The notes under the pieces were generated by a model. That model saw nothing but the letters and a program-made list of their open reading frames with translations. It was not told where the DNA came from and did not search any database. A stretch of DNA of 51,458 nucleotides, from the NCBI GenBank assembly GCA_004124475.1, contig SCKK01000023.1:1-51458 (forward strand), in the 5' to 3' direction. This DNA is from Fidelibacterota bacterium (GTDB taxonomy: Bacteria; Fidelibacterota; Marinisomatia; Marinisomatales; SCKK01). Shown here piece by piece: positions 11,786-50,500 of the stretch (position 1 is the stretch's first letter; each line of letters begins with the position of its first letter). The translations under genes and the position numbers were made by a program.

Positions 11786-11793
11786 TTTTCAGC

Positions 11794-13120: not shown

Positions 13121-13452
13121 CAGTCAATACAGGAGAATTTGATTCCCCTGCTTTTTGTCTCGTACGTTGAGAGTAGACCATCAGTTCCAAAGAGATTCTA
13201 TACCTTTATGGAAACAGATTAAGAAGAATTTTTGTGACCCTCAGTTATTGGTAGGCGCATAAAGAACCAAGATTGTATAAATCGTCGATAAATAAAAAAA
13301 GTTTGGTTCCCCGCCTTACTGACATTAGTCAGGCAGGTTGGCTCTCGGTTTTTGGGTCTTTTTCAACTATACTTTCTACCCATGACTGAGGCATTACGAA
13401 TTTTTACAGATATTCTTTTGTCACAAAAACAATTGCGTTAATTTTACATGAT
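13121..13452. other. Divergent intergenic region
   Basis: No gene is seen between the small minus-strand gene and the GAPDH-like gene. A repeat with CTGACATTAGTCAGG and CCGCC/AGGCAGG arms is at 13310-13336. The promoters of both flanking units must lie here, but I could not pick a convincing -35/-10 pair. Confidence 0.45.
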
Positions 13453-14472: not shown

Positions 14473-15470
14473 GAGTTGCTATAAATGGGTTTGGCCGGAT
14501 TGGAAGAACGGTATTCAGAATTTTAAATCAACAAACTAATCACCAGATTGTCGCAATTAACGACCTCGCTCCTAAAGATGCTTTGATTTATCTTTTAAAA
14601 TATGACACTGTTATGGGTCGATTTTCCGATACAATAGAAATGAAAGACGATGTCCTTATTACATCAAATCATCGAGTAAAATTGCTTACCGTATCCAACC
14701 CTTTTGACCTACCGTGGGGTAGTCTTGGCGTGGACGTTGTCATAGAATCCACGGGTGTTTTCAGAACGAGGGAAAAATTAGCACCTCATTTAGATGCAGG
14801 AGCTGATCGGGTTATTTTAACCGTACCGGCAAAAGGTGAAATCGATTATACCGTGGTAATCGGAGTTAATGATAAGGGCTTGAATTCAAGTCACAAGATT
14901 GTTTCAAATGCCAGTTGTACCACCAATTGTCTTGCTCCAATGGCAAAAGTACTGAACGATGCATTTGGGATTGAGTATGGTGTTATTAATACGATTCATG
15001 CATACACAAATGATCAGCGGTTGGCGGACGTTCCACACACAGATTGGCGACGTAGTCGAGCTGCGGCTGAGAATGTGATTCCAACCAGTACAGGCGCTGC
15101 GAGAGTTGTGGGTAAAGTCCTCCCTGAATTGGATGGGAAATTAGATGGGATTGCCATGAGAGTTCCAGTTCCCGATGGATCCGTTGTAGATTTTGTGGTT
15201 AGATTAAAATCTGATGTAACATCCAAGCAGGTAAAAGAGGCTGTCTATGAGGCTTCCATTTCGGGACAACTATCACGAATACTTGAATATTCTACTCTTC
15301 CAATCGTTTCTACGGACATCATTGGGAATCCTCATTCCTCAATCTTTGATGCCCCTTTCACTAAAGTATTGGAAGGGAATTTTGTGAAAACTCTAAATTG
15401 GTATGATAATGAGTGGGGATATTCAAATCGTGTAGTTGATCTGATTGATATTTTTGATCGTAAAAATTAA
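14469..15470 (+). CDS. gap: Glyceraldehyde-3-phosphate dehydrogenase, type I
   Basis: 333 residues from GTG 14469 (MRVAINGFGRIGR), which overlaps the previous stop by four bases. An upstream TTG at 14442 would add nine residues that no GAPDH has, so I reject it. Catalytic Cys150 (SNASCTTNCLAP) and His177 (NTIHAYTNDQ) are present, as are the NAD-site INDL (Asn31-Asp32), phosphate-site STGAA and WYDNEWGYSNR. It converts glyceraldehyde-3-phosphate, phosphate and NAD+ to 1,3-bisphosphoglycerate in glycolysis and gluconeogenesis. It is the active partner of the Cys-less paralogue upstream. Confidence 0.96.
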   Translation: MRVAINGFGRIGRTVFRILNQQTNHQIVAINDLAPKDALIYLLKYDTVMGRFSDTIEMKDDVLITSNHRVKLLTVSNPFDLPWGSLGVDVVIESTGVFRTREKLAPHLDAGADRVILTVPAKGEIDYTVVIGVNDKGLNSSHKIVSNASCTTNCLAPMAKVLNDAFGIEYGVINTIHAYTNDQRLADVPHTDWRRSRAAAENVIPTSTGAARVVGKVLPELDGKLDGIAMRVPVPDGSVVDFVVRLKSDVTSKQVKEAVYEASISGQLSRILEYSTLPIVSTDIIGNPHSSIFDAPFTKVLEGNFVKTLNWYDNEWGYSNRVVDLIDIFDRKN

Positions 15471-15777
15471 TTATTCTGCTGTATAAGTAAGGCGAATGTA
15501 ATATAAAAGATGTCATCTATCTGTTGACGGATGGCAACTTTCTTCAAAAGGTTAATTACACCTGAAAATCGCTTTAAGCATGGAGCACGGAGTCCTAACC
15601 CAATTGTCCTTCCATAGGATCCGTGTGAAACCACAATTATGGATAGGTAGGAAGGGTACGTCCCGAAACTGAACGAAGACAGAGATCCCATACCGCAGGT
15701 CGGGGTGTCAGGGCTACCTGCTTAATATTTTTGACAACTTTATGGAACTGATATTGTCATAATCTGTTGAAAAGTCA
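15471..15777. other. Intergenic region with degenerate dispersed repeat
   Basis: No gene is seen. The middle (about 15580-15700) resembles the composite repeat found at 20392 and 32873: GGAGCACGGAGTCC, CCATAGGATCCGTGTG, TCCCGAAAC. TTGACA at 15731 could be a -35 box for the DUF5916 gene, but no -10 lies at the right distance. Confidence 0.4.
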
Positions 15778-27940: not shown

Positions 27941-28408
27941 TCATTCATCTATTATCCATTCAAAAAGATATTTCTCATCATATTCCACATTGAATTTTTT
28001 GAGAATCTCCAAGTATTCCTCCTTGAAAGTCTTCTTGGCATGGTGGCTCTCCTGATTTTGAATGTATTTCACAACGGTATCGATTTGTGAATGTCCGTAG
28101 GAAAAGGCTCCAAAACCCTTCTGCCAATTAAATTTGCCCATGACCCATTTCTTTTCGTTGATGAATGACGAGGAATTGTTTTTGATATCGCGGACCAGAT
28201 TAGATAAAGCTATGCTCGGTTTTATGCCGATGAAAATGTGTACGTGATCAGGCATGCTATTGATAGCAATTAACTTCTGATTTTTATTCCGAATGATTCC
28301 TGCTATGTATTTGTGCAGCTCTTCTTTCTTTTCTTTATTGATGAGATTCTACCGATGTTGCACGGCGAACACGACTTGAATATAGATTTGGGTGTATGTA
28401 TTTGCCAT
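27941..28408 (-). pseudogene. IS200-like / REP-associated tyrosine transposase with in-frame TAG
   Basis: The minus-strand frame from ATG 28408 reads MANTYTQIYIQVVFAVQHR, then TAG at 28349-28351 (codon 20, most likely CAG), then NLINKEKKEELHKYIAGIIRNK and on to the stop at 27941. The Y1 nuclease features are intact downstream: the HUH-type motif PDHVHIFIG, GFGAFSYGHSQ, and catalytic Tyr in VVKYIQNQ. Total length would be about 155 residues, normal for this family. GGAGGTG precedes the ATG. It is flanked by near-identical inverted palindromes, so this was a REP-type (RAYT) or IS200-like unit, now disabled by one nonsense codon. Confidence 0.88.
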
Positions 28409-34222: not shown

Positions 34223-35164
34223 TTGACTAAACGTTCACTACGAATCGTTTTTATGGGGAACCCTAAATTTTCTGTCCCCAGTTTATCTGAATTAGTCAGG
34301 TCTCAACATCAAATTCTATCCGTAATAACCAAAGTAGATACCCAACAGGGTCGGGGTAGAAAATTACGTTCAACAGCAGTTGCAGATTATTCTGAGATAA
34401 ACGGGATTCCGGTCTTCAAAACAGAATCATTGAAGTCAGAGAAAACAGTTGAATACCTGAAAAGCTTAGACCCGGATTTATTTGTTATCGTTGCCTATAA
34501 AATTTTACCGAAATCTTTGTTAAAAATCCCACATTACGGTTCTGTGAATTTGCACGGATCCCTCTTACCGAAATACCGGGGAGCAGCCCCCATTCAATGG
34601 GCTTTAATGAGTGGCGATTCTTCAACAGGTCTTACCACCTTTTTCCTCAAACCGTCTGTTGATACTGGGGATATAGCACTGCAAAAAAAGGTGGTTATCT
34701 TTCCGGATGACGATTTTGGGACACTTTCAAATAGGATGGCTGTAATTGGTGCACTGTTGGTCAGAAAAACGGTGGACAGTGTTCGAGCAGGAAAGGTTAC
34801 GGTAATTCCCCAAGATAATACCCGGGCTACAAAAGCGCCTAAAATAACTCCGGAATTTTGTCAGATTGATTGGCATCGTTCTTCAATTGACATTCATAAC
34901 CAGGTTCGAGGGTTATCTCCCATTCCCTGTGCCTACACCCACCTGCGGAAAAAACGTTTGAAGATATTCAAAACTCGAATTTCTGGCGAAAAAAACATAT
35001 CCCCAGGAGAAGTGTCAGCCATTAGAAAAAGTGAATTTACAATTTCTTGTGGGACGGGGTCTCTGGATATCCTGGAAATCCAGTATGAAGGAAAACGCCG
35101 AATGCCTGTAGCGTCTTTTTTACAGGGTGTAGAAATTTCCATCGGGGAGCAAATGGTTGACTGA
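34223..35164 (+). CDS. fmt: Methionyl-tRNA formyltransferase
   Basis: 313 residues with FMGNPKFSVPSL, the catalytic and folate site NLHGSLLPKYRGAAPIQWA, and the downstream Asp in SVDTGDI. The C-terminal OB domain begins near 205. The start is TTG 34223 (TKRSLRIVFMGNP). No ATG fits the family N-terminus. Its last 8 bases overlap the rsmB start. Confidence 0.95.
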   Translation: MTKRSLRIVFMGNPKFSVPSLSELVRSQHQILSVITKVDTQQGRGRKLRSTAVADYSEINGIPVFKTESLKSEKTVEYLKSLDPDLFVIVAYKILPKSLLKIPHYGSVNLHGSLLPKYRGAAPIQWALMSGDSSTGLTTFFLKPSVDTGDIALQKKVVIFPDDDFGTLSNRMAVIGALLVRKTVDSVRAGKVTVIPQDNTRATKAPKITPEFCQIDWHRSSIDIHNQVRGLSPIPCAYTHLRKKRLKIFKTRISGEKNISPGEVSAIRKSEFTISCGTGSLDILEIQYEGKRRMPVASFLQGVEISIGEQMVD

Positions 35165-36491
35165 GAAGGATTACCGTTTTCATACGATCAACATCTTAAC
35201 AGAACTTGATCTTACACATAAACGCTTGTCTTCAATATCCTCTCACTATTTAAATTCAAGAAATGTCAATAGTCAATTACGTCCCACGATCACCTATTTG
35301 ATACAAGAAATAACTCGTCAGCGTGGTTTCCTGGATACCATCCTATCGAGGAGATACCACGGGAATTTCAATAAGTTGGACAAATGTGTCCGTAATATAC
35401 TCCGTCTGGGTGCATTTGAAATCATATTCAGGGAATCTGTTCCACCATATGCGTCTGTCAATTCTGCTGTTCAGTTAACCAAAAAAGTTGGGAGTACGAA
35501 TTTAACGGGAGTTGTAAACGCCATCCTCAGACAACTTGACCCTACAATGAAGCCTGATTTATCCCATCCGGATAAAGAGAAATCTGTGGAAGAGTTAGCT
35601 TTTGAACTTTCCCATCCGGAGTGGATGATTAAGCGGTGGATTACTCAATATGGATATCAGAATACGGTTGCTTTGTGTATCTGGAATAATCAGAGTCCGG
35701 TGTATACAATCCGTCGGAACCGCCTTCAAATAGATCGGGATGAATTCGAATTGTGGTTAAATATGATGGGTATTAAATGGGAGAGATCTCAAGCGAATTC
35801 ACATTTTTATAAGATAAATCAGGCATCCAAATTGAGAATAAGTGATGGGTTTTTAGAAGGGTATTTTACATTTCAGGATATTTCAGCAGGAATTGTATCT
35901 AAACTTGCCTATGAAAATTATAACGAAGTTCTATTGGATGTCTGCTGTGCACCAGGGGGAAAAATCTCCTATCTGGCGGAATTGATGGGAAACAAAGGAT
36001 CATTATTTGCATATGATGTTGATGAAAGACGATTAGAAAAAGTACGCGAAAATATTGCACGATTAAATCTTAATTGCATTCAATTAGGATTAAAAGATGC
36101 TACTAAGGATGATTTTCCTGATTCAGATTTGATATTATTAGATGTTCCGTGTTCGGGGACGGGGGTAATGGCAAAGCGGGCAGATTTAAGGTGGCGAAGG
36201 TGTGAAAAAAACATTTTAGAGATGGTCACCATACAAAAAAATATTTTGAATCATATGGTAACGTATCTAATGGATGGTGGAAAACTAATCTACAGCACAT
36301 GTTCCCTGGAACATGAAGAAAATTGGGGAGTGATTAATACCTTTTTAAAATCTAATAAAAACTTTCAGGTAGTAAAGCCAAAACAATCGGGACTTTCTGA
36401 TTTAGTTGATAATAACAGAGCATTAGCAACATTTCCACCTTGTGATATTATGGATGGAGTTTTTGCCGTAGTTTTGGAACGGATAGGATGA
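35157..36491 (+). CDS. rsmB: 16S rRNA m5C967 methyltransferase RsmB
   Basis: 444 residues: an N-terminal NusB-like RNA-binding domain (about 1-130, ILRLGAFEIIF, SVNSAVQLTKK), then a SAM-dependent RsmB domain with DVCCAPGGKISYLAELM, YDVDERRLEKVREN, LLDVPCSGTGV and YSTCSLEHEEN. Both cysteines of m5C methyltransferases (PCSG and STCS) are present. The start is TTG 35157, overlapping the fmt stop. def-fmt-rsmB is a common order. Confidence 0.93.
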   Translation: MTEKDYRFHTINILTELDLTHKRLSSISSHYLNSRNVNSQLRPTITYLIQEITRQRGFLDTILSRRYHGNFNKLDKCVRNILRLGAFEIIFRESVPPYASVNSAVQLTKKVGSTNLTGVVNAILRQLDPTMKPDLSHPDKEKSVEELAFELSHPEWMIKRWITQYGYQNTVALCIWNNQSPVYTIRRNRLQIDRDEFELWLNMMGIKWERSQANSHFYKINQASKLRISDGFLEGYFTFQDISAGIVSKLAYENYNEVLLDVCCAPGGKISYLAELMGNKGSLFAYDVDERRLEKVRENIARLNLNCIQLGLKDATKDDFPDSDLILLDVPCSGTGVMAKRADLRWRRCEKNILEMVTIQKNILNHMVTYLMDGGKLIYSTCSLEHEENWGVINTFLKSNKNFQVVKPKQSGLSDLVDNNRALATFPPCDIMDGVFAVVLERIG

Positions 36492-37246
36492 AAACAATAT
36501 TTAGATACGTTATCGCTTTTATACTCACTTCAGGAATATTGGTGTTGGTTTTGGATAAAATCGTTATGCCTGTGTATGTCTCACATTATCAAGGTCGATA
36601 CCTCCCGGATGTAAGAGGTCTGCTTTTCGAAGAAGCAAAATACAAGCTCGGTTTGGAAGGATTTAAAGCTATGTTAGGAGATGTAAAATATACAAGTGAA
36701 TTTGCTCCCGGTACTGTCATTGATCAATATCCAAAAGCGATGAGGAGAGTAAAGCCTGGACGGCGGATAAGACTCACGTTAGCGGAGAAAGAAAAGATGA
36801 TCCCAATCCCTGATGTTGTTGGAAAATCCATTCGAAGTGCCAGACTGGAAATTGAAGAAACCGGATTACAGATTGACTCAGTAATGAGTGAGTATGATGC
36901 CGAGGTTCCAAAAGATGTAATCAGGTGGCAATACCCAAAACCCGGTGATTTTTTAAGAAGGGGAAGTGGATTAACCCTCATTATCAGCAAAGGAAAACCT
37001 CCTGATTTTTACCAGGTCCCTCAACTATTCGGTCTTAGTTTGGGGAAAGCAAGAAAACTTCTCGTTGAAGCCCGTTTAAAAGTGGGAAGAATAACATATC
37101 GTCAAAATGAGGATCTCGTACCTTATACTGTATTGGATCAGTCTGTAGAAGCCGAAACTATCCTCGATCATCCGATTAAGGTTGATATTACCGTGAGTAT
37201 ACTCAATCTCGATGATCTATATAACAAACTTACTCTGCCGGAATAA
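36488..37246 (+). CDS. PASTA-repeat membrane protein without a kinase domain
   Basis: 252 residues. One N-terminal transmembrane helix (YVIAFILTSGILVLVLD) is followed by three PASTA domains (about 40-105, 106-172, 175-245), each with the PDV(R/V)G or VPQLFG start and a P-G turn. PASTA modules bind muropeptides or beta-lactams in PrkC/PBP2x. Here they are a stand-alone periplasmic module, as often seen after rsmB in FCB genomes. It overlaps the rsmB stop by four bases (ATGA). A role in envelope sensing is inference. Confidence 0.85.
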   Translation: MKTIFRYVIAFILTSGILVLVLDKIVMPVYVSHYQGRYLPDVRGLLFEEAKYKLGLEGFKAMLGDVKYTSEFAPGTVIDQYPKAMRRVKPGRRIRLTLAEKEKMIPIPDVVGKSIRSARLEIEETGLQIDSVMSEYDAEVPKDVIRWQYPKPGDFLRRGSGLTLIISKGKPPDFYQVPQLFGLSLGKARKLLVEARLKVGRITYRQNEDLVPYTVLDQSVEAETILDHPIKVDITVSILNLDDLYNKLTLPE

Positions 37247-37249
37247 AAG

Positions 37250-37828
37250 TTGACTTATAATCAGGAAATTTATCGGAAATTAATCCATATTACTTCCGTA
37301 AGTATTCCCATATCATACTGGTTTTTGTTTGATCGCTCAACAATGTTGTGGATCCTTTTAATAGCTTCTGCAGCGATTCTGGTTGGTGAAATCTTGAGGC
37401 TGATAATCCCATTCTTTGATGAAATATTCAGCATAATTTTCGGGAAAATAATTAGAGAGCGTGAAAAATCCGGCATTACAGGCGCGAGCTATACTTTGCT
37501 CGGATCTTTGATTACTATCTGGATATTCGAAAAAGAAGTGGCTATTTTTGCATTAATAGTTCTAGCAATTTGTGATTCAACTGCGGCTCTCGTTGGGATT
37601 AAATGGGGAAAATCTCCACTGCTCAATAAGTCTGTACAGGGTACGATGACTTTTTTAAGCATTGCGTTGGTAATTGTTTTTGTCGTACCGGTGTTTCCTA
37701 AAGTAGCTGGTATCTGCTCTGTATTTGTGATAACAGTTGTGGAATTACTTCCGTCACCTGTTAATGATAATCTGTTAATTCCACTCACAGCGGCTGTTTC
37801 CTTTTCAATAGTAAATCTGATTATATGA
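37250..37828 (+). CDS. Dolichol kinase / DGK1-like CTP-dependent lipid kinase family
   Basis: 192 residues with about six transmembrane helices. Family motifs are RKLIHI at the N-terminus, GASYTLLGSLI, CDSTAALVGIKWGKSPL, KSVQGTMTF and a C-terminal VELLPSPVNDNLLIPL. These match the SEC59/DGK1/VTE5 group, which phosphorylates polyprenols, phytol or diacylglycerol with CTP. Bacterial members probably recycle lipid carriers. The start is TTG 37250. It overlaps the next gene by four bases. The substrate is unknown. Confidence 0.8.
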   Translation: MTYNQEIYRKLIHITSVSIPISYWFLFDRSTMLWILLIASAAILVGEILRLIIPFFDEIFSIIFGKIIREREKSGITGASYTLLGSLITIWIFEKEVAIFALIVLAICDSTAALVGIKWGKSPLLNKSVQGTMTFLSIALVIVFVVPVFPKVAGICSVFVITVVELLPSPVNDNLLIPLTAAVSFSIVNLII

Positions 37829-39918
37829 GTTTTTTAGCACCTTCAATTTTGTGGGGTTTGGCAGCGGCAGCTATCCCAATTATTATTCATCTACTGAGTA
37901 TTAGAAAAACACAGCATATTGATTTCAGCACCATTCGATTTATTAAAGAACTGGAACATGAAACAATACGGAAGCTCAAAATTAGACAATGGTTACTTCT
38001 ATTCCTTAGAACTCTTGCCATAATTCTGATTGTTCTTGCATTTTCTCGACCAGTAAAAGTGGGTTATTTCCCACCCTGGGCTGCAGGTGATCGTAATACA
38101 AAAATGGTTATCATACTTGATAACTCTGCTTCCATGTCAGCAATCTATGATGGTGAGAGTCTCTTGGATCGCTCAAAGAATAGCATTGTTCAAATTCTGC
38201 GAGCCGTTGAAGGAAAGATTAATTTAGAGATATACCAGACCACGCCTCTAAAAAACATCTTCTCCGGAGAAATGATCTCAACAGATGAAATTGACATAGT
38301 GTTGACAAGGATAAAACCAAATTTTATGGAAGATGATCTTTGGACAGGTATTAATTTTGTCCTGAATGAAGTAGCGTTTAAGGGGAAGATTTCCACTACA
38401 GAGGCTAATAAGGAATTTTTCATCTTTAGTGATTTTCCATCTACTGCAGTAGAAGATTGGCAGCCTGCATCAACTCAGGAATTGTTGGATGGTAGCAGAT
38501 GGAGGTTCTTCCTTATATCCCAGCCTGAAATAGAGAACAATTTATCAGTTCAAACAGCGGAAGTTTTAACGCAAATCCGATTTCCCGGTCAGCTAATCGA
38601 TATCATAACAGAAGTCCAAAATTATTCAAAAAACAGCTATAAAGATATTCCGGTACAACTTTTTTTAGATCATAAACGGGTAGGGCAATTGGTTTCAGGT
38701 TTCAAAGCAAAGAATTCAAAGGAATTCTTATTTCGAGCATTTGTTAAGAATCCTGGTACATTACAAGGGGTGGTAGAAATCCCGGAAGATGATTATGAAG
38801 CAGACAACAGAAAGTTCTTTCAATTCTCCATTCCTGATCAGGTTTTTTGTACTCTGATTGGACCGACATTAGAATCCCTCTCTTTTCTTGAAAAGGCGCT
38901 CTCTTCTGTTAGTCAAGATCCCCATTTCATCGATTACAGATTAGTAATTTACGACCAAGCAAGCCCTCTTTATTTGCAGAATAGTGATGTTATCATCACG
39001 ATAAATCCTTCTCAATTAAGCCAATCTAATAGAAAAGAGATTGTGAAGTTTTTACAAAGGGGAGGGGGTATGATCGCATTTCTTGGAGATGATGTTGAAA
39101 AACTTAACAATTATAAGTTCTCCAATATCTTTTCTCTGCCTCGAGTCAATAGTTTGGTCGAGTTACCTGACAATATTTTCCATGAAGTTACTTTTATCGA
39201 TATGGACCATGCTATATTTTCTGACTTTCCCATTGCCAATTTAGAAAGTGAAATGCCCCAGGTTTTTAAGCACGTTAGCATTTCACCAGGAGATGATTGG
39301 GACATATTGCTTACTCTGTCTAATGGGAATCCATTATTAATTGAGAAGCATGTGGGGAATGGAAATGTTTTTGTTTTCTCCGTGCCCCCAAATCTTAGAT
39401 GGACTGACTTACCGATTCGAGGGATTTTTGTTCCATTCCTACACAGAATGATTCACTACCTTTCCACAAAAGAGGGAGCTAAAGATGTGGTAATTGTGGG
39501 TGAAAAATTTGAGGTTCCCTTAGACCGATCATCAATTTCCGAAGAGATAGAATTGATTTCTCCTTTTGGTCGGCGTATTTTACTTGTCCCTAACTACCGG
39601 AGAGAAGTAGTAATGATTAATGACGTAGATGAAATTGGGAGTTACAAGCTGATGGCAGGCAGCAAGGAAATAACTTCATTTGTTGCAAATGTATCGGAAA
39701 ACGAGAATCCATCATTTAGATTCACCACAAATAAATTAATTTCCCTTTTTCCTGAAAAGCAGACAAGGGTTGTATCGTGGAAAGAAGATATTGTCAACTC
39801 GGTATTGGAGGCACGGAGAGGAACTGAATTATGGCGTCCATTTGTTATGGCTGTTTTGGTTGTGCTGGTACTTGAAACATGGGTTGGAAGGATTCGGAAA
39901 GGATCATCTGAAAAATGA
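37825..39918 (+). CDS. BatA-domain and VWA-like membrane protein
   Basis: 697 residues. The N-terminal BatA domain contains a transmembrane helix (ILWGLAAAAIPIIIHLL) with RKTQHIDFSTIRFI, and a second helix (LLLFLRTLAIILIVLAFSRP). A VWA-like domain follows with the MIDAS-type DNSASMS (about 99-105). A large periplasmic beta/Rossmann-like region comes next, including a glutaminase-like GGGMIAFLGDD. A last helix is at the C-terminus (FVMAVLVVLVLETW). Such proteins are common in FCB bacteria. Their biochemical role is not known, possibly envelope stress or protein assembly. It overlaps hflX by 4 bp. Confidence 0.85.
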   Translation: MSFLAPSILWGLAAAAIPIIIHLLSIRKTQHIDFSTIRFIKELEHETIRKLKIRQWLLLFLRTLAIILIVLAFSRPVKVGYFPPWAAGDRNTKMVIILDNSASMSAIYDGESLLDRSKNSIVQILRAVEGKINLEIYQTTPLKNIFSGEMISTDEIDIVLTRIKPNFMEDDLWTGINFVLNEVAFKGKISTTEANKEFFIFSDFPSTAVEDWQPASTQELLDGSRWRFFLISQPEIENNLSVQTAEVLTQIRFPGQLIDIITEVQNYSKNSYKDIPVQLFLDHKRVGQLVSGFKAKNSKEFLFRAFVKNPGTLQGVVEIPEDDYEADNRKFFQFSIPDQVFCTLIGPTLESLSFLEKALSSVSQDPHFIDYRLVIYDQASPLYLQNSDVIITINPSQLSQSNRKEIVKFLQRGGGMIAFLGDDVEKLNNYKFSNIFSLPRVNSLVELPDNIFHEVTFIDMDHAIFSDFPIANLESEMPQVFKHVSISPGDDWDILLTLSNGNPLLIEKHVGNGNVFVFSVPPNLRWTDLPIRGIFVPFLHRMIHYLSTKEGAKDVVIVGEKFEVPLDRSSISEEIELISPFGRRILLVPNYRREVVMINDVDEIGSYKLMAGSKEITSFVANVSENENPSFRFTTNKLISLFPEKQTRVVSWKEDIVNSVLEARRGTELWRPFVMAVLVVLVLETWVGRIRKGSSEK

Positions 39919-41192
39919 AACGTACGGAAGCAAAAGAATTAGAGAAAGCTTTACTAGTCGGCGTCGTTCAATCTGGAATGACTGCTGATGTGGTTGAAGA
40001 ACATTTGGAGGAGTTGGCTTTTCTTGCAAAGACTGCCGGAGCTGAAATAGTAGGAACTGTTACCCAGCGCATGGAGAGGATCAATCCCCGGTATTATATT
40101 GGTTCGGGGAAGGCGGAACAAATTGTGAACCAGGCTGAGGAACTTGATGTTCAGTTGATAATTTTCGATGACGAATTATCCCCCTCTCAGGTTCGGAATT
40201 TTCATAAACTGACTCAATCTGTAAAAGTTATAGATCGTACCGGATTAATTTTGGACGTATTTGCTCAACACGCTCAATCACGAGAGGCGAAAACCCAGGT
40301 TGAATTGGCTCAACTCCAATATCTGCTTCCCCGCCTCACGCGAATGTGGACACATTTAGAGAGACAAATGGGGGGAATTGGTACCCGAGCAGGGGCGGGG
40401 GAAACTCAAATTGAAGTGGATCGTCGTTTGGTCCGTGATCGGATTTCCAAGTTAAAAGATGAATTAGGTAAAATAGACAGAGAAAGGATCACTCAAAGTA
40501 AACGACGTAAAGAAGCGGTTCGTGTGGCTCTGGTTGGGTATACGAACACGGGAAAATCAACGTTGATGAACGCATTAACCGGATCAGATATTTTTGTAAA
40601 GGATCAGCTCTTCGCAACATTGGATACGACAGTTAGATCTTTGAATTTGGACACTAATCATAAAATCCTCTTAAGTGATTCTGTGGGGTTTATCCGAAAA
40701 CTTCCACACAATTTAATTGCTTCATTTCGAAGTACATTGATGGAGGTACGTGACGCTGATCTCTTGTTGATTGTTATGGATGCCAGCAGTTCCACGATTG
40801 GCGAGCAACTAAAAACCGTAAGAGAAGTTTTATTGTCCATTCAGGCCCATCAAAACGAGTCACTACTTGTAGTGAATAAAATTGATAAAATTGAAAAATC
40901 GAGTATTTTGCAGAACTTAAAAACTGATTATCAAGATGCTATTTTCATTTCGGCATTAAATCATCTTCGTTTGGATACATTACAAAATGCAATCATAAAA
41001 GTGATGGACAAAGCTTATCAAACAACAACCGTCATTTTTGATCCCAAAATGGGGAAAGAAATTTCATCAGTATATCAAGAACTGGAAGTGTTGAATATGG
41101 AATATCGGGAGGATGGTGTTCATATGACTGTTAGGGGTGATCCAGTGTCTGTAAAACGTGTTAAGAAACTTTCGGAAAATAGTATTTATTAG
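39915..41192 (+). CDS. hflX: HflX ribosome-splitting GTPase
   Basis: 425 residues: an N-terminal HflX domain (about 1-185) with the glycine signature GGIGTRAGAGETQIEVDRR, then a GTPase domain with G1 GYTNTGKST, a TT-type switch region, G3 DSVGFI, G4 NKID and G5 SAL. HflX binds the ribosome and splits stalled 70S particles under stress. It is the last gene of the yajC-hflX operon, whose genes overlap or nearly touch. Confidence 0.95.
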   Translation: MKRTEAKELEKALLVGVVQSGMTADVVEEHLEELAFLAKTAGAEIVGTVTQRMERINPRYYIGSGKAEQIVNQAEELDVQLIIFDDELSPSQVRNFHKLTQSVKVIDRTGLILDVFAQHAQSREAKTQVELAQLQYLLPRLTRMWTHLERQMGGIGTRAGAGETQIEVDRRLVRDRISKLKDELGKIDRERITQSKRRKEAVRVALVGYTNTGKSTLMNALTGSDIFVKDQLFATLDTTVRSLNLDTNHKILLSDSVGFIRKLPHNLIASFRSTLMEVRDADLLLIVMDASSSTIGEQLKTVREVLLSIQAHQNESLLVVNKIDKIEKSSILQNLKTDYQDAIFISALNHLRLDTLQNAIIKVMDKAYQTTTVIFDPKMGKEISSVYQELEVLNMEYREDGVHMTVRGDPVSVKRVKKLSENSIY

Positions 41193-41276
41193 CAGTGAAG
41201 TGTATCAAAAGTTGTGGTAATTTTTATAAATTGTAAAACATGACTCTACAAGTAACGGTTTTGAGAAGCAAAGGTA

Positions 41277-41305
41277 TTGCCTATAAAGCTGAAAGGCTGT
41301 ATTTT
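41277..41305 (+). promoter_or_regulatory. Possible promoter for the PEGA-protein gene
   Basis: TTGCCT (41277-41282), a 17-base spacer, then TATTTT (41300-41305), about 60 bp before the start codon. Only moderately close to consensus. Confidence 0.35.
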
Positions 41306-41364
41306 TCTTTTGGGCATTTTTTATAACTGCATTTTGAAGAGGGATTAATATTACGCTTGTGATT

Positions 41365-43185
41365 ATGAGATTCAGGTTGGTTTATCTTTTGTGTGTATAC
41401 TTATATTTTATAACACAAATATGTGCGCAAACTGCCGAGCGCCGTAATATAGCAGTCGTCACTTTTGATGCCCGGGGGGTTTCACCCATAGAAGCTGAAG
41501 CTGTGGCTGATCGAATCCGCAACGAATTCACAAAAGCTGATGTATATCAGGTAGTAGAACGGGGTTTGATGGAGGAGATCATGGAGGAACAGGCATTTCA
41601 GTTGACGGGGGCTTGTACAGAGTCATCCTGCCTCGTTGAAGTGGGCAAAATTCTGGCGGTTCACTTTATGGCAGGTGGCAGCGTGACGAAGGTAGGAAAT
41701 TTGTTTACCATCGAGGCAAGAATTGTTGACGTGGAGAGCGGAAAGATCGTTCAGAACGTTATCGAAGATTACTTGGGACCCATCGAAAATTTGATGGTTC
41801 ACACGACCAAGATTGTTGCTAACAAATTAATGGGTCTTGAAGAGGAGTTTAAAGCTGTCATGTTAGGAGGCACCAGCGACTTGTTAGTCAAATCAAATCC
41901 TTTCGGAGCAACTATCTACATTAATGACAGTCCTATTGGCGATATAACCCCCTACACCATCCAGGGACTTATTGAGGGGGAGTAAAGGATTAAAGCGAAA
42001 AAGGGAAACCTTGTAGGAGAGAAACTCGTCCTTCTCAAGAAAAATGAGATTAAAGAAATCGTGATCAATCTGGAACTCGAAAAATTCCTAATCCGATTGT
42101 ATTCCACCCCGACGGGAGCGGAAGCCTATATCAATCGCAAGAAAATAGGTCAGACACCTGTGGATTTTACTGTTACCAATACTACCCTGGACTATATAAT
42201 TGAACTACGGAAAGACCTATATAAGACGGTTGTGGATACGGTTATTTTCCAAAAGAACCCGATGTTGAGAATGAATATGAGTCTGGTTCCCTGCGGTAGG
42301 ATTTTTATTCCGGTCAACCTTTCTGGTGTTAATATGTATCTTGACGGGATGCCTGTAGAAAATTACCTCTACTATGATGAGGTTAAGGGAATGATAGATC
42401 AGATGGATTTTGGAGATTACATGGTTAGAATGGAGAAACAATATCACCACCCATTCGAAACTACTGTTTCTTTGACAGAGTCACTGCCCGAAAAGATCAT
42501 CATCCCCAGTTTTGATAAGCTGGAATCCGTCCTCACTCTACTGAACGGTTCTGCTGACGTGGAGGGGCAAATCATTGGCGTTGGAGCTATCATCCGTTAT
42601 TTCAGCATTGCTGCGAATGACAAATCTCCCGTAACCATTACATACGGAGATTACCAAATCACGGCAAAGGCAAAGGGATTCTTACTGTTTAGAGAGAATG
42701 TAAAAGTCTTTTCTCAGGAGCCGCAGACTATTCATTTACGTTTGATACGCCCCGATCAAAAGAAAGCGATAAGACGATCTTTATTGTTTCCTGGTGTGGG
42801 TCAGATCTACTCACTGCAACATTATAAAGGAGGAATTCTTGCTGTTGTCATGACAGCCGGTATGTCCTGGGCATATAATTCTTGGAATAATTACTCTCCT
42901 GAATTGGATCGATATGATGAATACAACAAGAATTACATGAATGCAACGACTATTAATGATATGAACAAATATAGGGTTCTCGCAAATGATAGCAGGGATA
43001 AATTGAATTCTTATCGCATTCAGTTATTGTCTGCTATGGAAGTGAGCGTGGTGACTTATGTTCTGAATCTTGTCGATATTACATGGCTTTATCCGTATAA
43101 ACAATCGAGCAATAGTCTAAGTCTGTATTATAACGGAATGGAAAGTGGTGATTTGGTTTCGATCCATTATTTTTGGGAGTTTTGA
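41365..43185 (+). pseudogene. LpoB/CsgG-like plus PEGA repeat protein gene with in-frame TAA
   Basis: One frame of about 606 codons is cut by a single TAA at 41983-41985, between IQGLIEGE and RIKAKKGNLVGEKL. Before it are a signal peptide (LLCVYLYFITQICAQ), a CsgG/LpoB-like domain (RNIAVVTFDARGVSPIEAEAV, ESSCLVEVGKIL) and the first PEGA domain (LLVKSNPFGATIYIN). PEGA domains usually read GEYRI, so the TAA probably replaces Tyr (TAT/TAC). After it come a second PEGA domain (LYSTPTGAEAYINRKKIGQTP), a beta-rich part, and a C-terminal region with LLFPGVGQIYSLQHYKGG as in DUF5683-type proteins. The rest looks intact, so this is a fresh lesion or readthrough. Confidence 0.8.
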
Positions 43186-43186
43186 T

Positions 43187-44092
43187 GTGATTTGTTCATT
43201 AGCCACCTCCCGAGATTTCGGGATCGTTGCCCCCTATGGTGCGGGAAGGTCAGGCACTACTCCCCACAGGGTCCTTCGGACAATACTCCAGTTATTCGTA
43301 TTAATTCTTTTTCTTTCATCATGCTCCATCCTTGAAGGTCCGGAAGAAATCTCCAACCCCATGGATCCCAATGACCCGGATTTCGCACCCCCTACGGTGA
43401 CGTTTCTACAAGCGCCAGTCGAAGGAGAAATTGTTGATACTTCTTATGTCACTTTTGAATGGGAAGGTAACCAACCCAGTATGAATTTTTCTTACAAAAT
43501 GGATAACAATGACTGGACTGAATGGTCTACTGAAAAATCGGTGGAATTCAATTATTTGGATGAGAGCAGTCACTCCTTTGAGATTAAATCCCGTTATTTT
43601 AACGGGGTGGAATCGGACATGCCTCAAAGGATCCTTTTCTCGGTCGATGATGTTCAGGGACCTGCATTGATTTTTTTTCCGAGGCTATCTATTGTTACTT
43701 CAGGATTAATGTTTTCTGTGGAAATTATGGCGGAAGATGTAGCAAATCTTGCAGGGGCGAAAGTGGTAGTCAATTTTAACCCATCCTACCTTCAGGTTCA
43801 GGAGATAATCGTCTATGCGGACGATAGATCAATTTTCAAAACAAATGGGGGGACAGTTATACCGTTTTACGAGTATAACAACAGTGAGGGCAGCTTGAAG
43901 ATAGAATCCGGGGTAGCCACAGGTGATCCACCGGGTGTGGATGGTACGGGAGCAATTGCATTCGTGATGTTCCAAACAACAAGTAGAGGTACAACAGAAA
44001 TCGTTTTTAATACTTCGTCTGAAATGAGGACCCCGGATAATGAGAGTATCTTATTATCTGAGATAGTGGAGGGAGTTGTTATTATTGAGTAG
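43187..44092 (+). CDS. Lipoprotein with cohesin-like domain and repeat-derived N-terminal extension
   Basis: 302 codons from GTG 43187, chosen because GGGAG lies 7 bases upstream and no in-frame ATG, GTG or TTG occurs before the signal core. The signal peptide (LQLFVLILFLSSCSILEG, lipobox LSSC) is preceded by about 35 odd residues encoded by dispersed-repeat sequence (43205-43283). A fibronectin-like segment follows (TSYVTFEWEGN, about 80-150). Then comes a cohesin-like domain (VEIMAEDVANLAGAKVVVNFNPSYLQVQEI, ATGDPPGVDGTGAIAFVMF). It is an outer-membrane or periplasmic lipoprotein. The partner is unknown. It starts one base after the stop of the PEGA gene. Confidence 0.72.
   Translation: MICSLATSRDFGIVAPYGAGRSGTTPHRVLRTILQLFVLILFLSSCSILEGPEEISNPMDPNDPDFAPPTVTFLQAPVEGEIVDTSYVTFEWEGNQPSMNFSYKMDNNDWTEWSTEKSVEFNYLDESSHSFEIKSRYFNGVESDMPQRILFSVDDVQGPALIFFPRLSIVTSGLMFSVEIMAEDVANLAGAKVVVNFNPSYLQVQEIIVYADDRSIFKTNGGTVIPFYEYNNSEGSLKIESGVATGDPPGVDGTGAIAFVMFQTTSRGTTEIVFNTSSEMRTPDNESILLSEIVEGVVIIE
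43205..43283. repeat. Dispersed repeat in the lipoprotein 5' coding region
   Basis: Contains CCTCCCGAGATTTCGGGATCG and, at 43262-43283, a 22-base block (CCCCACAGGG...TTCGGACAA) that is identical to 45116-45137. Confidence 0.75.
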
Positions 44093-44154
44093 GAAAAATA
44101 ATAAACCTTGATCGTTTGGGAATGGTGGTAAAAACAAACTTGGAGGTGAAAAAA

Positions 44155-44349
44155 ATGGATAAGGAATATGAATGGCTAATGCAGCATCCTGAAGAAGAAG
44201 CGAAATACAGAGGAGAATGTATTGCGGTTGTTGGGAGTAAAATTGTGGCTCACGGGAAGGATTCAAAGAAGGTTTTGGAAGAAGCGAAGAAGTACTCTGA
44301 TAAACCCTTAATTGCCTATGTTCCTGAAGAAGAGGTTTTGATTTTTTGA
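44155..44349 (+). CDS. DUF5678-family small protein
   Basis: 64 residues from ATG 44155, preceded by TTGGAGGTG. An upstream in-frame start at 44116 would only translate the ribosome site. The sequence MDKEYEWLMQHPEEEAKYRGECIAVV, then GSKIVAHGKDSKKVLEEAKK, then PLIAYVPEEEVLIF follows the DUF5678 pattern (Y-GK-IAVV...VAHG...A...P-VP). Members are small cytosolic proteins of unknown function, often near toxin-antitoxin or mobile genes. A TumE-like pair lies just downstream. Confidence 0.75.
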   Translation: MDKEYEWLMQHPEEEAKYRGECIAVVGSKIVAHGKDSKKVLEEAKKYSDKPLIAYVPEEEVLIF

Positions 44350-44430
44350 GTAATGTTTCGTTTACTAATTTGACTTTCATGGAGTTTTGATGCATATTTG
44401 AAATAAGGGCTAATGAAGGAGAAAAACGTT

Positions 44431-44754
44431 ATGCAAACTGTGTCGAAGAAAATAGAAGATTACGCAAATGATTTGGTTCCGGAAGGAAACATTGAGTTCA
44501 AATTTGAAAAACTGATCGAAAATGAACTCATCCGCAGATTAATTCGTTTCCGGCATGTTATTAGATTATTAGAGAAGAAATATGGAATGGATTTCAACAC
44601 TTTTAGGGAAAGAGAAGTGGTGAAGCAGATGAAGTATTCCTTTGAAGTGGAAAATGATTTTTGCGATTGGGAGATGTCTTTGGATGGAATTAAAGCGATT
44701 GAGGGACAATTGAAAGAATTAAGGCGAGACATGAATGAACATAAAGAAGGTTAG
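44431..44754 (+). CDS. Putative antitoxin of a TumE-like (DUF6516-type) pair
   Basis: 107 residues from ATG 44431. The earlier in-frame ATG at 44413 overlaps AAGGAG, which is the ribosome site of 44431. Helical protein with RHVIRLLEKKYGMDFNTFRE and YSFEVENDFCDWEMSLDGIKAIEGQLKEL, a pattern I associate with the antitoxin partner of TumE/DUF6516-like toxins (KYGMxFxxF...ExDxxxWE). It overlaps the next gene by 20 bases, as toxin-antitoxin genes often do. Assignment is by resemblance only. Confidence 0.5.
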   Translation: MQTVSKKIEDYANDLVPEGNIEFKFEKLIENELIRRLIRFRHVIRLLEKKYGMDFNTFREREVVKQMKYSFEVENDFCDWEMSLDGIKAIEGQLKELRRDMNEHKEG

Positions 44755-45088
44755 GCATCAGATTGTTACCGCGGCAAGGGATTTTCCAGTCATAAGTTCG
44801 ACGGAATTGATTGATGAGACAAATTATGCTGTCAAATATCACTTGATTATTGACCAATTGACGTTCGTTCAAGTCTACCACAATGTTGATACGGACACAA
44901 TCAGTTACGTACTCGTCCGAAGCCTTTCGAGAATATATGGCAGGGATTGTTGTGATTGAGTATGGCACAAGCACCCTTTCGAAGATCCTCACACCCACGA
45001 TTTCTCCATAGATGGACAAAAGCCTACCAATATTCAAATGTTCTTGCAGGAGGTTGAGGCGATTCTAACAACAGAACATCTACTATGA
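44735..45088 (+). pseudogene. TumE/DUF6516-like putative toxin with in-frame TGA
   Basis: ATG 44735 opens MNIKKVRHQIVTAARDFPVIS, then YHLIIDQLTFVQVYHNVDTDTISYVLVRSLSRIYGRDCCD, then TGA (44957-44959). The same frame continues VWHKHPFEDPHTHDFSIDGQKPTN and FLQEVEAILTTEHLL to TGA 45086-45088. The conserved WHxHPFEDPxxH tail after the stop shows that the full protein (about 117 residues) was ancestral. The truncated product would lack the histidine tail. A toxin role is by family resemblance. Selenocysteine is unlikely, because the family has no Cys there that I know of. Confidence 0.6.
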
Positions 45089-45115
45089 AGCAATGTGCAT
45101 ATAAAATGAACCTTT

Positions 45116-45137
45116 CCCCACAGGGTCCTTCGGACAA
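45116..45137. repeat. 22-bp repeat identical to 43262-43283
   Basis: CCCCACAGGG...CTTCGGACAA. Exact copy of the block found in the lipoprotein 5' coding region 1.9 kb upstream. Confidence 0.85.
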
Positions 45138-45192
45138 AGGATCGTTATGATAAGGTTTGGAATCATAGGGGAATTTGGAGATAGAGTCACCA

Positions 45193-45465
45193 ATGCCGAT
45201 TAGAGCACTCATCCTATTCTATCTGTTTTTATCATCTGTATTGTACAGTTACGATAATACACATCCCAGACGATCACGCCACGATTCAGGCAGGAATTGA
45301 AGCTTCTACTAATGGTGACATCATCGTTATCCACGCCTCGCAAACTGGATTGAGTATGAGAACTTACAGCTACGATAGTGGAGCCAGAACTGCCCAATTT
45401 GACCCTGTGATCGATTTTAAGGTTAAGGAAGTCATGATTGATATGATTAACTCAGGAAGAGACAG
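45193..45465 (+). pseudogene. Relic of an exported beta-helix/Big_5 protein
   Basis: ATG 45193 opens a signal peptide (MPIRALILFYLFLSSVLYS). After a frameshift near 45255 a second frame reads IPDDHATIQAGIEASTNGDIIVI, the usual start of FCB parallel beta-helix proteins. It is fused directly to HASQTGLSMRTYSYDSGA and AQFDPVIDFKVKEV. That last part matches residues of the giant protein at 47521 (HASQTGLHTGAYSYDSGTKTA, FYPDTDFNVGEV). It is an internally deleted, frameshifted paralogue. Confidence 0.7.
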
Positions 45466-45525
45466 TTGTACCCAAAGTACCTTGATACATCACCTCTCAA
45501 CAATAGATACTATAGTAAAGAAAGA

Positions 45526-47367
45526 ATGAAGATCCTCACCCTACATACGAAAGACGCAAATTTATTTCTTTCAAATCTGAAACAGGAGGGGCTCGTTGTT
45601 CTAGCAGGCTCAGCTATTTCTTGTTGGGAACCGTCTTCTTTATTCTCGGGACATCAGTTTACTCAAGAAATGTTCAATCTACTTTTCACACCATCCTTTT
45701 TGAAGAATAATGCTAATGATGAAGAAATAACAATATTGAAAGAGTTCTTTGAAGCAGTTCCTTTTGAGCATTTACTCGAGAGGTACCCCAACGGCAAAAA
45801 ATTAGCTCATATTCTAAAAAGTTATTTCTCGATAGATAGGTTTAATCGTATACACGAAGTACTTGCGAAGGGACTTATTCATGGTACAATTAAAGGGGTT
45901 ATAACGACAAACTATGATCTCTGTTTCGATAAAGTCCTGAGACTCAATTCAAGTTCAACTAACTCAAAACCATATACCCAATTTAAGCGGGTAATAACTG
46001 TCGAGGATCATAAAAACGTAAAGTATAACATAGAAGATGCAAGAATATACTTTAAAATCCACGGAAGTGCCGATGATAATTCAGGGGAAACTCTGGTTTT
46101 TACACTGACTCATGAGAGCCTTCTGCCGAAATGGAAACGCGAAATTCTATGGCAGGTCCTTCAAAATAATTCCTTATTAATTATAGGTTATTCTGGTACA
46201 GATTTTGAAATTTGTCCAGAAATTGAACGCATCCCACTTAAACAGATAATTTGGAATTGGAGACAAACAGATACCAAAAGTCTCAATTTCCCCAGCAACA
46301 ATGCAGAAAGGATTTTACGTAACAAATCTGGAACTGCATTGATTGGAGACATGAAAGAGTTGCTTTCCTATTTATTTACAGAAAGAATTGAAGCGAATTG
46401 GAATCCTAAAGGATTGGACAAAGTAATATCTCAACTCAGATCTAAATCTGAGATTGAAATTATGGAATGGAGAGCTTCTTTACTCAACAGTATGGGGTTT
46501 CCTTCATTAGCATTTAAATCTAGTGAAATACTACTTGCATCATTTTCACGTGAAGCAATGAATACGGACTTTATCCAAGCCGAACGTCAAAAGGCGCAAT
46601 CGCTATTTCACCTTGGGAAATATCGTGACTCAGCATATCTTTTTCGTAAAGCAGCCAAGCAAGCGAAGGAGCTTGACCAAAAGGATATCGAGGCTAGTCT
46701 GCTATTAGATGTAAGTTCGTCTTATAGAGCCTATGGAACATTTTTGAGATCAATTTACAATACTATAATTGCTCGTAGAATTGCAACTATTATACCTGAT
46801 AGAGAAATATCAAAACGTATAATGGGTAAAGTGTTTCTACGGTATGCTTTAATGATGAGAGAATTTTATAGAATATCAAAATTCATGAGAATATTATTTT
46901 TAACTAAGTCGATTATCATTGGGGAAATGAAGCATCTTTTAAAGATAGCTTCTTCTCGTGCTATAGAAACAGGCAATTGGCATGATTTCTATCAAACAAG
47001 ACTAATAGCAGACCAAGCAGAGATTTCTATTTCTTTCGATAGTACCGATTACTATGAGCCACCACCTACGAGAGATGCGTATACACAATTAGGGTACGCA
47101 ATCCCTATATCTACTTCTAAAAGACAAGAACTAAATAAGTTGAAAAGACCATTGACATCAGATGAAAAGAGGGAATTATCATCAAATTTGAAAAAGAACG
47201 AAGTTACCGAAAATTTTCCCGAAGCTTGGAAAAATCTATGGTTTGGTATCACTCGAATTACAAAATGGAGAAAAGACAAACAGATTTGGAGGAAATTCTT
47301 AACTAACTATTTTTACTGTCAATATACCGTTGGTATGAGGTTACTTAAGCCTTTCATCGGAGAATGA
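45526..47367 (+). CDS. SIR2-like domain protein with helical-repeat C-terminus
   Basis: 613 residues from ATG 45526. A TTG at 45466 would add 20 unlikely residues. The N-terminal SIR2-like domain (about 1-290) shows VVLAGSAIS, GVITTNYDLCFDKVL, YFKIHGSADD and LLIIGYSGTDFEICPEI, the NAD-binding and catalytic-His layout of SIR2_2 proteins. The C-terminal half (about 300-613) has TPR-like helices (QAERQKAQSLFHLGKYRDSAYLFRKAAKQAKELDQKD). SIR2-like domains in bacterial immunity (for example ThsA, DSR and SIR2-HerA types) are NADases triggered by phage. The local context, with a toxin-antitoxin-like pair and remnants, suits a defence role. No obvious partner gene is adjacent. Confidence 0.78.
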   Translation: MKILTLHTKDANLFLSNLKQEGLVVLAGSAISCWEPSSLFSGHQFTQEMFNLLFTPSFLKNNANDEEITILKEFFEAVPFEHLLERYPNGKKLAHILKSYFSIDRFNRIHEVLAKGLIHGTIKGVITTNYDLCFDKVLRLNSSSTNSKPYTQFKRVITVEDHKNVKYNIEDARIYFKIHGSADDNSGETLVFTLTHESLLPKWKREILWQVLQNNSLLIIGYSGTDFEICPEIERIPLKQIIWNWRQTDTKSLNFPSNNAERILRNKSGTALIGDMKELLSYLFTERIEANWNPKGLDKVISQLRSKSEIEIMEWRASLLNSMGFPSLAFKSSEILLASFSREAMNTDFIQAERQKAQSLFHLGKYRDSAYLFRKAAKQAKELDQKDIEASLLLDVSSSYRAYGTFLRSIYNTIIARRIATIIPDREISKRIMGKVFLRYALMMREFYRISKFMRILFLTKSIIIGEMKHLLKIASSRAIETGNWHDFYQTRLIADQAEISISFDSTDYYEPPPTRDAYTQLGYAIPISTSKRQELNKLKRPLTSDEKRELSSNLKKNEVTENFPEAWKNLWFGITRITKWRKDKQIWRKFLTNYFYCQYTVGMRLLKPFIGE

Positions 47368-47520
47368 TTCCTGTTTTAATAGTACTGAATAGTTTGGAAA
47401 TCTTGGAACTTGACATTGAGGAATTAAACTTTTTTAGGAGGTTTCCAATAGTTTCGAGTCCGATGTGGAGGTCGCTGTAACAAACTTGGATCCAGGTTCA
47501 AATAAATAAGCTACTTGCAA

Positions 47521-50500
47521 ATGAATAAACGCACTAGAAACTCACAGTATAGTTGTATCCTATGTAAGCCAGTAATGATTCTAGTATTTATTCTAACTGT
47601 GGGAGCGGAATTAAGCGCCCAAACTGAAGTAAGCGGAATCATTTCTTCCGACACAACTTGGACTCAGGCGATGAGTCCTATTATCATTACCGGCGAAGTA
47701 ACGGTGAACTCAGGCGTCACTCTGACCGTAGATCCAGGTGTGACCGTGCTGTTAAATTCTGGCTTATCTCTTACAATTGATGGCTCACTAAGAGCAATAG
47801 GAACAGTAACTGATTCCATTACATTTACCGCAAATACTGCGACACCTATGCCAGGATTTTGGGGAGGTGTTGTTTTTAATAGCAGCAGTAGTAATGATAC
47901 TCTAGAATATTGCAAAATGGAGTATGGCTGGCAGGTTATTACTGTCTACTCTACTAGTTCAATATTAATTAAGCACTGCATGATTATCAACAATGAAGAT
48001 AGGAGTATACATCTTCGAAATGGTGCTTCTCCGACAATTATGAACAATATAATTTCTAACAATGGGTATGGAATAGTAGGTTGGCCAAACTGCTCTCCTC
48101 TTATTGAAGATAATATCATTACCAATAATTCAGTACATGGGCTCAATTTCGATTTTTCATCCAATCCTACTATTAGGGGGAATGTCATCTCAAATAATGG
48201 TTGGGGCATTGTTGCTGTAAATAATTGTTCTCCAATAATTGAAGATAATATTATACGGAATAATATAGGCGGCATCTATACGTATGGCTACGCCTCTCCT
48301 ATGATTATTCACAATACCATAACTGGTAATCAATATGGTATTTATAGCAATTATGAGTTTTCGCCCGAAGAAGGGACTTGGCCGCCGATTTATTATAACA
48401 ACATTTATGCAAATGTATATAACTTTTACAACCGTACAACACAAAATGTTGATGCTGCTTCCAACTGGTGGGGTACCACAAACACTGACTCCATTGATGC
48501 TCATATATGGGATTATAACGATGACCAGAGCGCAGGTACGATAAACTACACGCCTGTACTCAACGTTCCAGATACTGATTCCCCTTCCATTCCCTATTAC
48601 ATTTCCATATCCCGTGATTCCCTCAATTTTGGCCTAACAAGAATGGACAGTACAAAGAACCTTCAATTTAATGTTTATAACTATGGTACCGATGGAACAC
48701 TTGAGGTTACAAATATTACTTCGTCGGGTGGAGAGTTTGTTCCAACGCCAACTAGTGCATCTATTTCACCGGGAGATGCCTCAACAATAACGATTAATTT
48801 CACCCCTACCGACATGCTCACCTATTCCGATAGCCTCACTATTTTCAGCAATGACCCAAACAATCCTCAAGTTACACTGTATGTTTCAGGCACAGGCGAT
48901 CCCATTGTCGCTCACACCCCTGCACAAAATGCGTTAAATGTTTCGCAAAGCACCGACATTTCCGTTACCTTTGGAGTAGCTATCAATCTCGCCACCATCA
49001 ACGCCAACACTTACGTTATCCACGCTTCTCAAACGGGATTGCATACTGGTGCTTACAGCTACGACAGCGGGACAAAGACAGCAACATTTTATCCTGATAC
49101 GGATTTCAATGTTGGTGAAGTTGTGAACGTGACACTGACAACAGGAATACAAAATATACTTGGCAACCCGATACCGAATTCATACAACTGGAGCTTTACA
49201 ATAGAATCTATTGATGGAAGCGGTGTGTTTGCAGTAGCTGAAGATGTGGGCGTCGGGAGTACTCCGACATCGGTCACATCAGGCGATTTCGATGGTGATT
49301 CAGACTTAGATCTGGCCGTAACGAATGGGAATTCAAACACAGTGTCAATCTTGATAAATGATGGGAGTGGAAATTTTACGCAAACAACCACGTTAGGTGT
49401 AGGAGGTTATCCGAGATCTGTAAGCGCAGGTGATTTTGATGGAGATGGGGATATGGATTTGGCTGTTGCGAATGAATCTTCAAACACAATCTCAATCTTG
49501 AAGAATGATGGTAATGCAAATTTTACTCAGAGCTCAACATTGGGTGTTGGAAGCGGCCCTTTTAGAGTATCCATAGGAGATTACGACGGGGATGGGGATT
49601 TGGACTTAGCTGTCCCAAATCATGGATCGAACACAGTCTCTATCTTGGTGAATGATGGAAGTGGAAGTTTTACGGAAATCTCAACCGTGGATGTTGGAAA
49701 TCAACCAGTTGGAGTAGCAGCGGGCGATTTGGATGGAGATGGGGATTTAGATTTAGCTGTGTCAAATTGGGGTGGGGGTTCGGGCACAACAGTGTCAATT
49801 TTAATGAATGACGGAAGTGGGAGTTTTACACAAAGCTTTACAGTTGTCGTCGGAAGTGGACCTACTGGAGTATATTCGGGAGACTATGATGGGGATGGGG
49901 ATCTGGATTTGGCGGTTGCGAATCAATATTCAAACACACTCTCAATATTAACGAATAATGGGACTGGAAGTTTTACAGAAAGCTCAACGATCGAAGTCGG
50001 CAATTATCCGGCTCGGGTAACTACAGGTGATTTCGATGGAGATGGGGATCTTGACTTGGCAGTGGCAAATTGGGGTCAGGGCTCAGGAACAACAGTCTCA
50101 ATTTTGACGAATGATGGCAGTGGGAGTTTTACCAAAAGCGAGGTGCAGGTACGGAATGGTCCTATTACACCAACCGCAGCAGATTTTGACGGTGACGGTG
50201 ATTTGGATTTGGCAGTTTCCAATTCGGGTTCAAACACGGTCTCAATATTGGAAAACTTGCCTGTGGTTCAGGACATCGAGGTCTCGACAACTTTGCTAAC
50301 ATTCGGAGTGATACAATCAAACTCATCAAAATCCTTAACCTTCCGGATTTTCAATCAGGGTGGCTTGAATCAACTCAATGTTTCGAGTATTAGCGGATCA
50401 TTACCCTCTATCTTCTCAGTGACTCCTTCTTCGGGTATCATCAATGCGCAGGACACTCTTACGATTACGGTAACGTTTACACCTTCAGAAGGGATTATCT

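Follow-up and report, generated by a model that had tools for sequence, protein, structure and literature searches.

The gene described here, which lies in a contig of a Fidelibacterota bacterium (SCKK01000023.1, assembly GCA_004124475.1; the whole stretch of 51,458 nucleotides is referred to as the window), probably encodes a stand-alone antiphage abortive-infection protein, in which a SIR2 NADase is gated by a TPR-like helical solenoid. An earlier note, made from the sequence of the window, had proposed a single-gene SIR2-like/helical-repeat protein with the layout of a single-protein defence effector and a possible antiviral NADase activity. The architecture holds: the reading frame is intact and joins a SIR2_2 domain to a modelled helical solenoid (Table 1). 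The functional proposal is supported by defence genes beside most of the relatives and by DSR2 as the top fold match; we infer the NADase activity and the protection against phage, and an antiphage role is probable from the distribution of the family, the neighbours of its members and the fold.

Table 1. Positions of the SIR2–TPR gene, its domains and motifs, and a repeat in its upstream flank.
Feature	Window position	Residues	Strand	Basis or remark
SIR2–TPR protein, complete gene, 613 aa	45526..47367		+	Intact ORF; full-length homologs known from five or more lineages
SIR2_2 catalytic domain (putative)	45526..46395	1–290 (boundary approximate, from the model)	+	Pfam PF13289; KomC/ThsA alignment; invariant motifs; alpha/beta model
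Motif GSAIS		28–32		SIR2 domain
Motif TTNYD		127–131		SIR2 domain
Motif KIHG		177–180		SIR2 domain
Motif GYSGTDFE, extended GYSGTDFEICP		221–228, extended 221–231		SIR2 domain
C-terminal TPR-like helical solenoid, presumed sensor/autoinhibitory half	46414..47364	297–613	+	AlphaFold2; Foldseek; faster divergence
Dispersed 22-bp repeat, CCCCACAGGGTCCTTCGGACAA	45116..45137		+	Sits where synteny with the congener stops; second copy at 43262–43283, 1.85 kb upstream

Reading frame and SIR2 domain

The reading frame starts with ATG and contains no internal stop codons. A TTG at 45466 would provide an alternative start and a longer frame; the alignment with the closest homolog begins at the ATG. That homolog is 43–44% identical and full-length, spanning residues 1–612 of the window protein, and a chance reading frame or chance motifs are therefore excluded. 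A SIR2_2 search of the whole genome of the organism returned the window gene (44 bits) and one other match, which is weaker and below threshold.

Pfam places SIR2_2 (PF13289) at residues 124–229 of the window protein, where it scores 42 bits (cut-off 24.5; E = 1.3e-10), and the four motifs that had been read as a complete SIR2-like active site are all present. The residues G28, S29, S32, N129, Y130, D131, K177, H179 and G180 are invariant in ten of ten family members, as are those of a second block, G221, Y222, S223, G224, D226, F227, C230 and P231; the window protein keeps every residue that is invariant among its relatives. In particular, alignment reveals no loss of the catalytic Asn/His pair, N129 and H179. 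Comparison of the sequences strongly supports Asn129 and His179 as the catalytic residues, and the SIR2_2 domain as a putative NAD+ hydrolase by enzyme class. A search of the PDB with a nine-member profile gave KomC as the best match (1e-6), followed by an entry named ‘USG protein’ (6e-6) and by ThsA (4e-5 to 7e-5). The TTNYD and K-x-HG positions of the profile align with the corresponding TTNYD and HG histidine in KomC, and also with ThsA; the HG histidine of the family coincides with KomC H146, which is substituted in entry 9xvc. Substitution of the asparagine or the histidine abolishes NADase activity in DSR2 (N133A and H171A; PMC11290490) and immunity in the Nezha SIR2 protein (N168A and H227A; PMC11559045). 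A match of the single sequence to BB0238 in the PDB was rejected as a chance hit, since the profile search did not return this protein.

Motif 1 has the form GSxxS in every homolog, compared with the canonical GAGxS, and retains the first glycine and the last serine. It reads as a family-specific change of the canonical loop, which could alter the binding of NAD.

Deacylases are found among SIR2-fold proteins, and the gene might on this account encode an enzyme of ordinary physiology, either a protein deacylase or an ADP-ribosylating enzyme. This is very improbable, given the patchy distribution of the family and the fact that its closest solved relatives are defence NADases. Furthermore, the window protein differs from the canonical sirtuin deacylases in lacking both the zinc module (no zinc-binding CxxC pairs in a motif scan) and a match to the canonical SIR2 family (PF02146, searched with Pfam).

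The C-terminal helical half

The AlphaFold2 model of the window protein, calculated from a seven-sequence alignment, has a mean pLDDT of 82 and a pTM of 0.83. In the model, residues 1–290 form an alpha/beta SIR2 domain, and residues 297–610 form about sixteen successive helices, most blocks of which have a pLDDT above 80. A Foldseek comparison with the PDB gave sixteen matches at E ≤ 0.001, all of them DSR2 chains, followed by EfAvs5, TPR proteins and SIR2–HerA. The TM-scores to DSR2 are about 0.3, indicating that the match is by domains and not by one rigid arrangement. The TPR proteins matched include LGN, NprR, Rap phosphatases and MalT, with E values of 0.004–0.02 and modest TM-scores. The all-helical, TPR-like solenoid predicted by the model, together with these matches, agrees with the proposed fusion to a long TPR-like half. 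The earlier note recognised no named family in this half; the TPR profiles of Pfam stay under their cut-offs (TPR_12, 13.9 bits against 30.1).

The two halves have diverged to different extents. The identities of the window protein to eight relatives, given for the SIR2 half and the C-terminal half respectively, are 50/38, 44/34, 42/25, 35/15, 29/17, 33/17, 27/16 and 28/15%. In distant pairs the SIR2 half is 25–35% identical and the C-terminal half mostly 12–19%, the former being about twice as conserved in most of them. A conserved effector joined to a fast-changing helical half would fit a sensor under selection by phage, and is supportive of this reading; the faster divergence can also mean relaxed or weaker constraint, which would look alike.

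Relatives, their neighbours and the window locus

Nine full-length homologs, 22–44% identical, are found in Aminicenantes, Ignavibacteriales, Acidobacteria, Bacteroidota and Rhizobiales. Three of them are plasmid-borne and were returned by tblastn from the Agrobacterium group (A. salinitolerans, Allorhizobium ampelinum and A. tumefaciens). A wider scan, with a four-sequence alignment as the query and one genome per species, returned full-length relatives from Aminicenantes (43%), Ignavibacteriales (40%), Acidobacteria (35%), Bacteroidota (31%) and Bradyrhizobium forestalis (29%), besides a distant Sigynarchaeota protein. A further full-length member, from a genome (G275) of the same phylum as the Aminicenantes genome, was matched at E = 2e-125 and brings the total to nine. 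Within its own phylum the gene occurs in one of 245 genomes by single-sequence search, and a profile adds only three matches, weak and partial. Such scatter across distant phyla would be expected of genes that move horizontally and not of housekeeping genes; the contexts differ from genome to genome, with no conserved housekeeping surroundings. No viral or phage homologs were returned from IMG/VR (three query sequences) or from INPHARED, and a search of BFVD for viral relatives gave TPR look-alikes only.

In one Sigynarchaeota genome (G250), about a dozen genes carry the SIR2 N-terminal domain of the family, in open frames of 650 to 1650 aa, which suggests an expanded SIR2 effector repertoire.

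The neighbours of the homologs that were compared with the PADLOC models were chosen by eye, and the following tallies refer to these picks. Strong defence neighbours are present in four of the nine loci. The annotation makes a fifth (L006) likely, since its DUF262 gene is described similarly to the HEC-05 gene (726 bits) that adjoins the homolog at L005, and a sixth (L009) has partial-domain matches to an Old/AriA-like ATPase and a PD-T4-6-like kinase. A cytosine methylase, Vsr and an IS66 element are found at L004. Integrases were seen at L010 and a defence gene was not; no clear defence gene is present on the 4-kb contig of L008 or at L011, where the homolog lies among metabolic genes. The homolog at L043 (genome G275) is immediately preceded by tyrosine-recombinase-like genes and a small ORF, and on its downstream side come QatA (485 bits) and an HTH–IrrE gene. 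Here (8862–16362) the homolog adjoins three large tyrosine-recombinase-like genes, a set which we take to be a Tn554-like layout, and which suggests that the homolog moves as transposon cargo.

The locus of the closest homolog (L007) carries, in order, a type II methylase (647 bits), an MjaI restriction endonuclease, a DUF1883–TIR protein (region 6078–8748) and the SIR2 gene. The TIR protein is encoded directly upstream of the SIR2 gene on the same strand, and may be a one-gene system in its own right or work together with the SIR2–TPR gene. Its position and its match to the ThsB model (154 bits) would fit a SIR2–TPR protein that serves solely as the effector in a two-component system, in which phage is detected by a separate protein, such as a signal-producing TIR protein of the Thoeris kind, and the TPR half receives that protein or its signal. 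We regard this arrangement as unlikely: the best match of the TIR protein is the single-gene candidate PDC-S66 (245 bits), and on the strand of the window gene no intact gene immediately precedes it. Across the loci the upstream gene varies (BNR-like, lipoprotein-like, DUF4145 or a divergent ATPase gene), and the lack of a recurring partner favours a single-gene system.

Members of the family are plasmid-borne and beside recombinases, and some SIR2 systems, for example SPARSA, respond to invading nucleic acid. These points would suit a guard against mobile DNA, plasmids included, or a general stress-triggered toxin, in place of a phage sensor. Such a role is nevertheless improbable, as an Argonaute or other nucleic-acid-binding partner is absent, TPR-like solenoids usually bind proteins, and the adjoining defence genes are mainly of antiphage types.

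In the window itself, the gene is surrounded by genes for surface-type proteins and an HflX-like GTPase, by DUF5678 and by a toxin-antitoxin-like pair that is broken, with no recognised defence genes among them. The toxin-like and DUF5678 sequences of the earlier note are thus in place, while its IS sequences come down to one IS200/REP-type Y1 transposase fragment (27941–28255, reverse strand), 17 kb from the SIR2 gene and the sole IS sequence found; the support for defence that had been drawn from this neighbourhood is weak. The toxin-antitoxin-like pair (44413–45088), which by eye is reminiscent of TumA/TumE, gave no profile match, and its second gene has an in-frame stop in the window but is intact in the congener (G070; L044 10280–10633). 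We reject a functional connection of this pair with the SIR2 gene: the congener carries the pair but did not yield the SIR2 gene, and in the window, which has the SIR2 gene, the pair is disrupted. A weak Csn2 match (6.6e-05) on the 113-aa neighbour at 44413–44754 was also rejected, as it covers about 60 aligned residues and has no Pfam or NCBIfam support. Elsewhere in the window (6757–11785), LexA-like, ImuB-like and DnaE2-like genes are consecutive and, as read from the sequence, look like an SOS mutagenesis cassette.

The congener is collinear with the window from 34756 to 45103, at 89–95% identity; only short repeats of window 45104–49250 were matched in it. Its contig stops about 50 bp past the breakpoint at 45103, and no empty site is visible. 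The 22-bp repeat at this point has seven copies in the genome at up to two mismatches (none for the reversed control) and similar copies in the congener. It holds a small hairpin, GTCC-TTC-GGAC, and is possibly a REP-like element, for which the Y1 transposase fragment is a candidate mobiliser. Just upstream of the SIR2 gene, a 108-bp segment (45325–45432) matches 49014–49121 at 70% identity and appears to be a decayed fragment of the Ig-like/beta-helix surface protein gene that lies downstream.

The G+C content of the SIR2–TPR gene is about 35%, compared with about 41% upstream and around it. This, and the broken state of the adjoining toxin-like gene, might indicate a horizontally acquired gene that is decaying or inactive in the window genome and active in its relatives. 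With all 613 codons intact and the invariant residues kept, decay of this kind seems quite unlikely.

Proposed mechanism and comparison with known systems

The best reading is that the protein is an abortive-infection NADase made of one SIR2–TPR chain that lacks an NTPase, and that it belongs to an unnamed subfamily of the SIR2_2 single-chain effectors with an outline like that of DSR2. The SIR2_2 NAD+ hydrolase would be held inactive until the C-terminal solenoid binds a phage-derived protein. Upon binding, the SIR2 domains would assemble or open, NAD+ would be depleted and growth of the infected cell would stop. DSR2 is triggered by a phage tail tube protein (PMC11290490, PMC11263360), and triggering of the solenoid by a phage protein is proposed by analogy with it. 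The trigger and the activation step are drawn by analogy only; NADase activity, sensing by the solenoid and oligomeric activation are what we infer for the family. The chances appear evenly balanced that its members form a distinct, unnamed subfamily of minimal immune sensors, in which the solenoid recognises a phage protein directly and turns the NADase on without an NTPase, a nucleotide signal or a partner.

Compared by structure and profile with the ThsA, DSR and Avs proteins that had been named as reference points, the window protein finds its best fold match in DSR2, and assignment to the DSR2, ThsA or Avs5 family fails. The ThsA protein of Thoeris (SIR2–SLOG) has an alignable SIR2 domain, at the E values given above. 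In contrast, the C-terminal half of the family is a helical solenoid and not SLOG, and matches of the ThsA model are confined to the SIR2 domain of the homologs. A ThsB/TIR partner was not seen near the window gene; among the homolog loci, a TIR gene is present at one, L007. SIR2–HerA (Nezha) and KomC (Kongming) share the SIR2 NADase domain, KomC being the best sequence match in the PDB; both are multi-gene systems, while the family has neither HerA nor a conserved partner, and no HerA or Argonaute gene, as in SIR2–HerA or SPARSA, adjoins the gene in the window or in the homolog loci.

The single-gene candidates PDC-S25 and PDC-S65 of PADLOC also contain a SIR2 domain, with a best match of 5.8e-13 for a relative (L011). 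The match covers only part of this domain and leaves the C-terminal halves unmatched, and for the window protein no PADLOC PDC model was returned at E ≤ 1. Neither PADLOC (2023) nor NCBIfam (2026) has a model spanning the full length of the family, and no paper on a stand-alone SIR2–TPR family was found in the open-access literature. The signature GSxxS ... TTNYD ... FK[IL]HG ... GYSGxDF[DE]xCP, followed by a TPR-like solenoid, could serve to annotate relatives missed by the profile libraries tested.

Avs5 consists of a SIR2 domain, a STAND NTPase and a repeat sensor, with C-terminal helical repeats, some of them TPR (PMC12931631). The family resembles it in the SIR2 effector and the C-terminal helical repeats, but is without the central STAND NTPase: the P-loop (Walker A, GxxxxGK[ST]) is absent from ten of ten members, and an NTPase profile is absent too. 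The likeness to DSR2 and DSR1 is closer in outline, as both have one chain, an N-terminal SIR2 domain with the catalytic asparagine and histidine, and a long all-helical C-terminal half. However, the window protein has 613 residues and DSR2 about 1000 or more (SIR2, MID and CTD), the overall arrangement is unlike, as the TM-scores indicate, and the full-length Dsr2 profile of NCBIfam does not match the window protein (one homolog, P0003, reaches 13.9 bits against a cut-off of 1400). If the proposed reading is correct, the general picture of SIR2-based immunity is unchanged, and the family would represent a compact, portable, one-gene NADase defence, much smaller than DSR2 and lacking the NTPase found in Avs5, as well as a simple case for studying the gating of a SIR2 NADase by a repeat domain alone.
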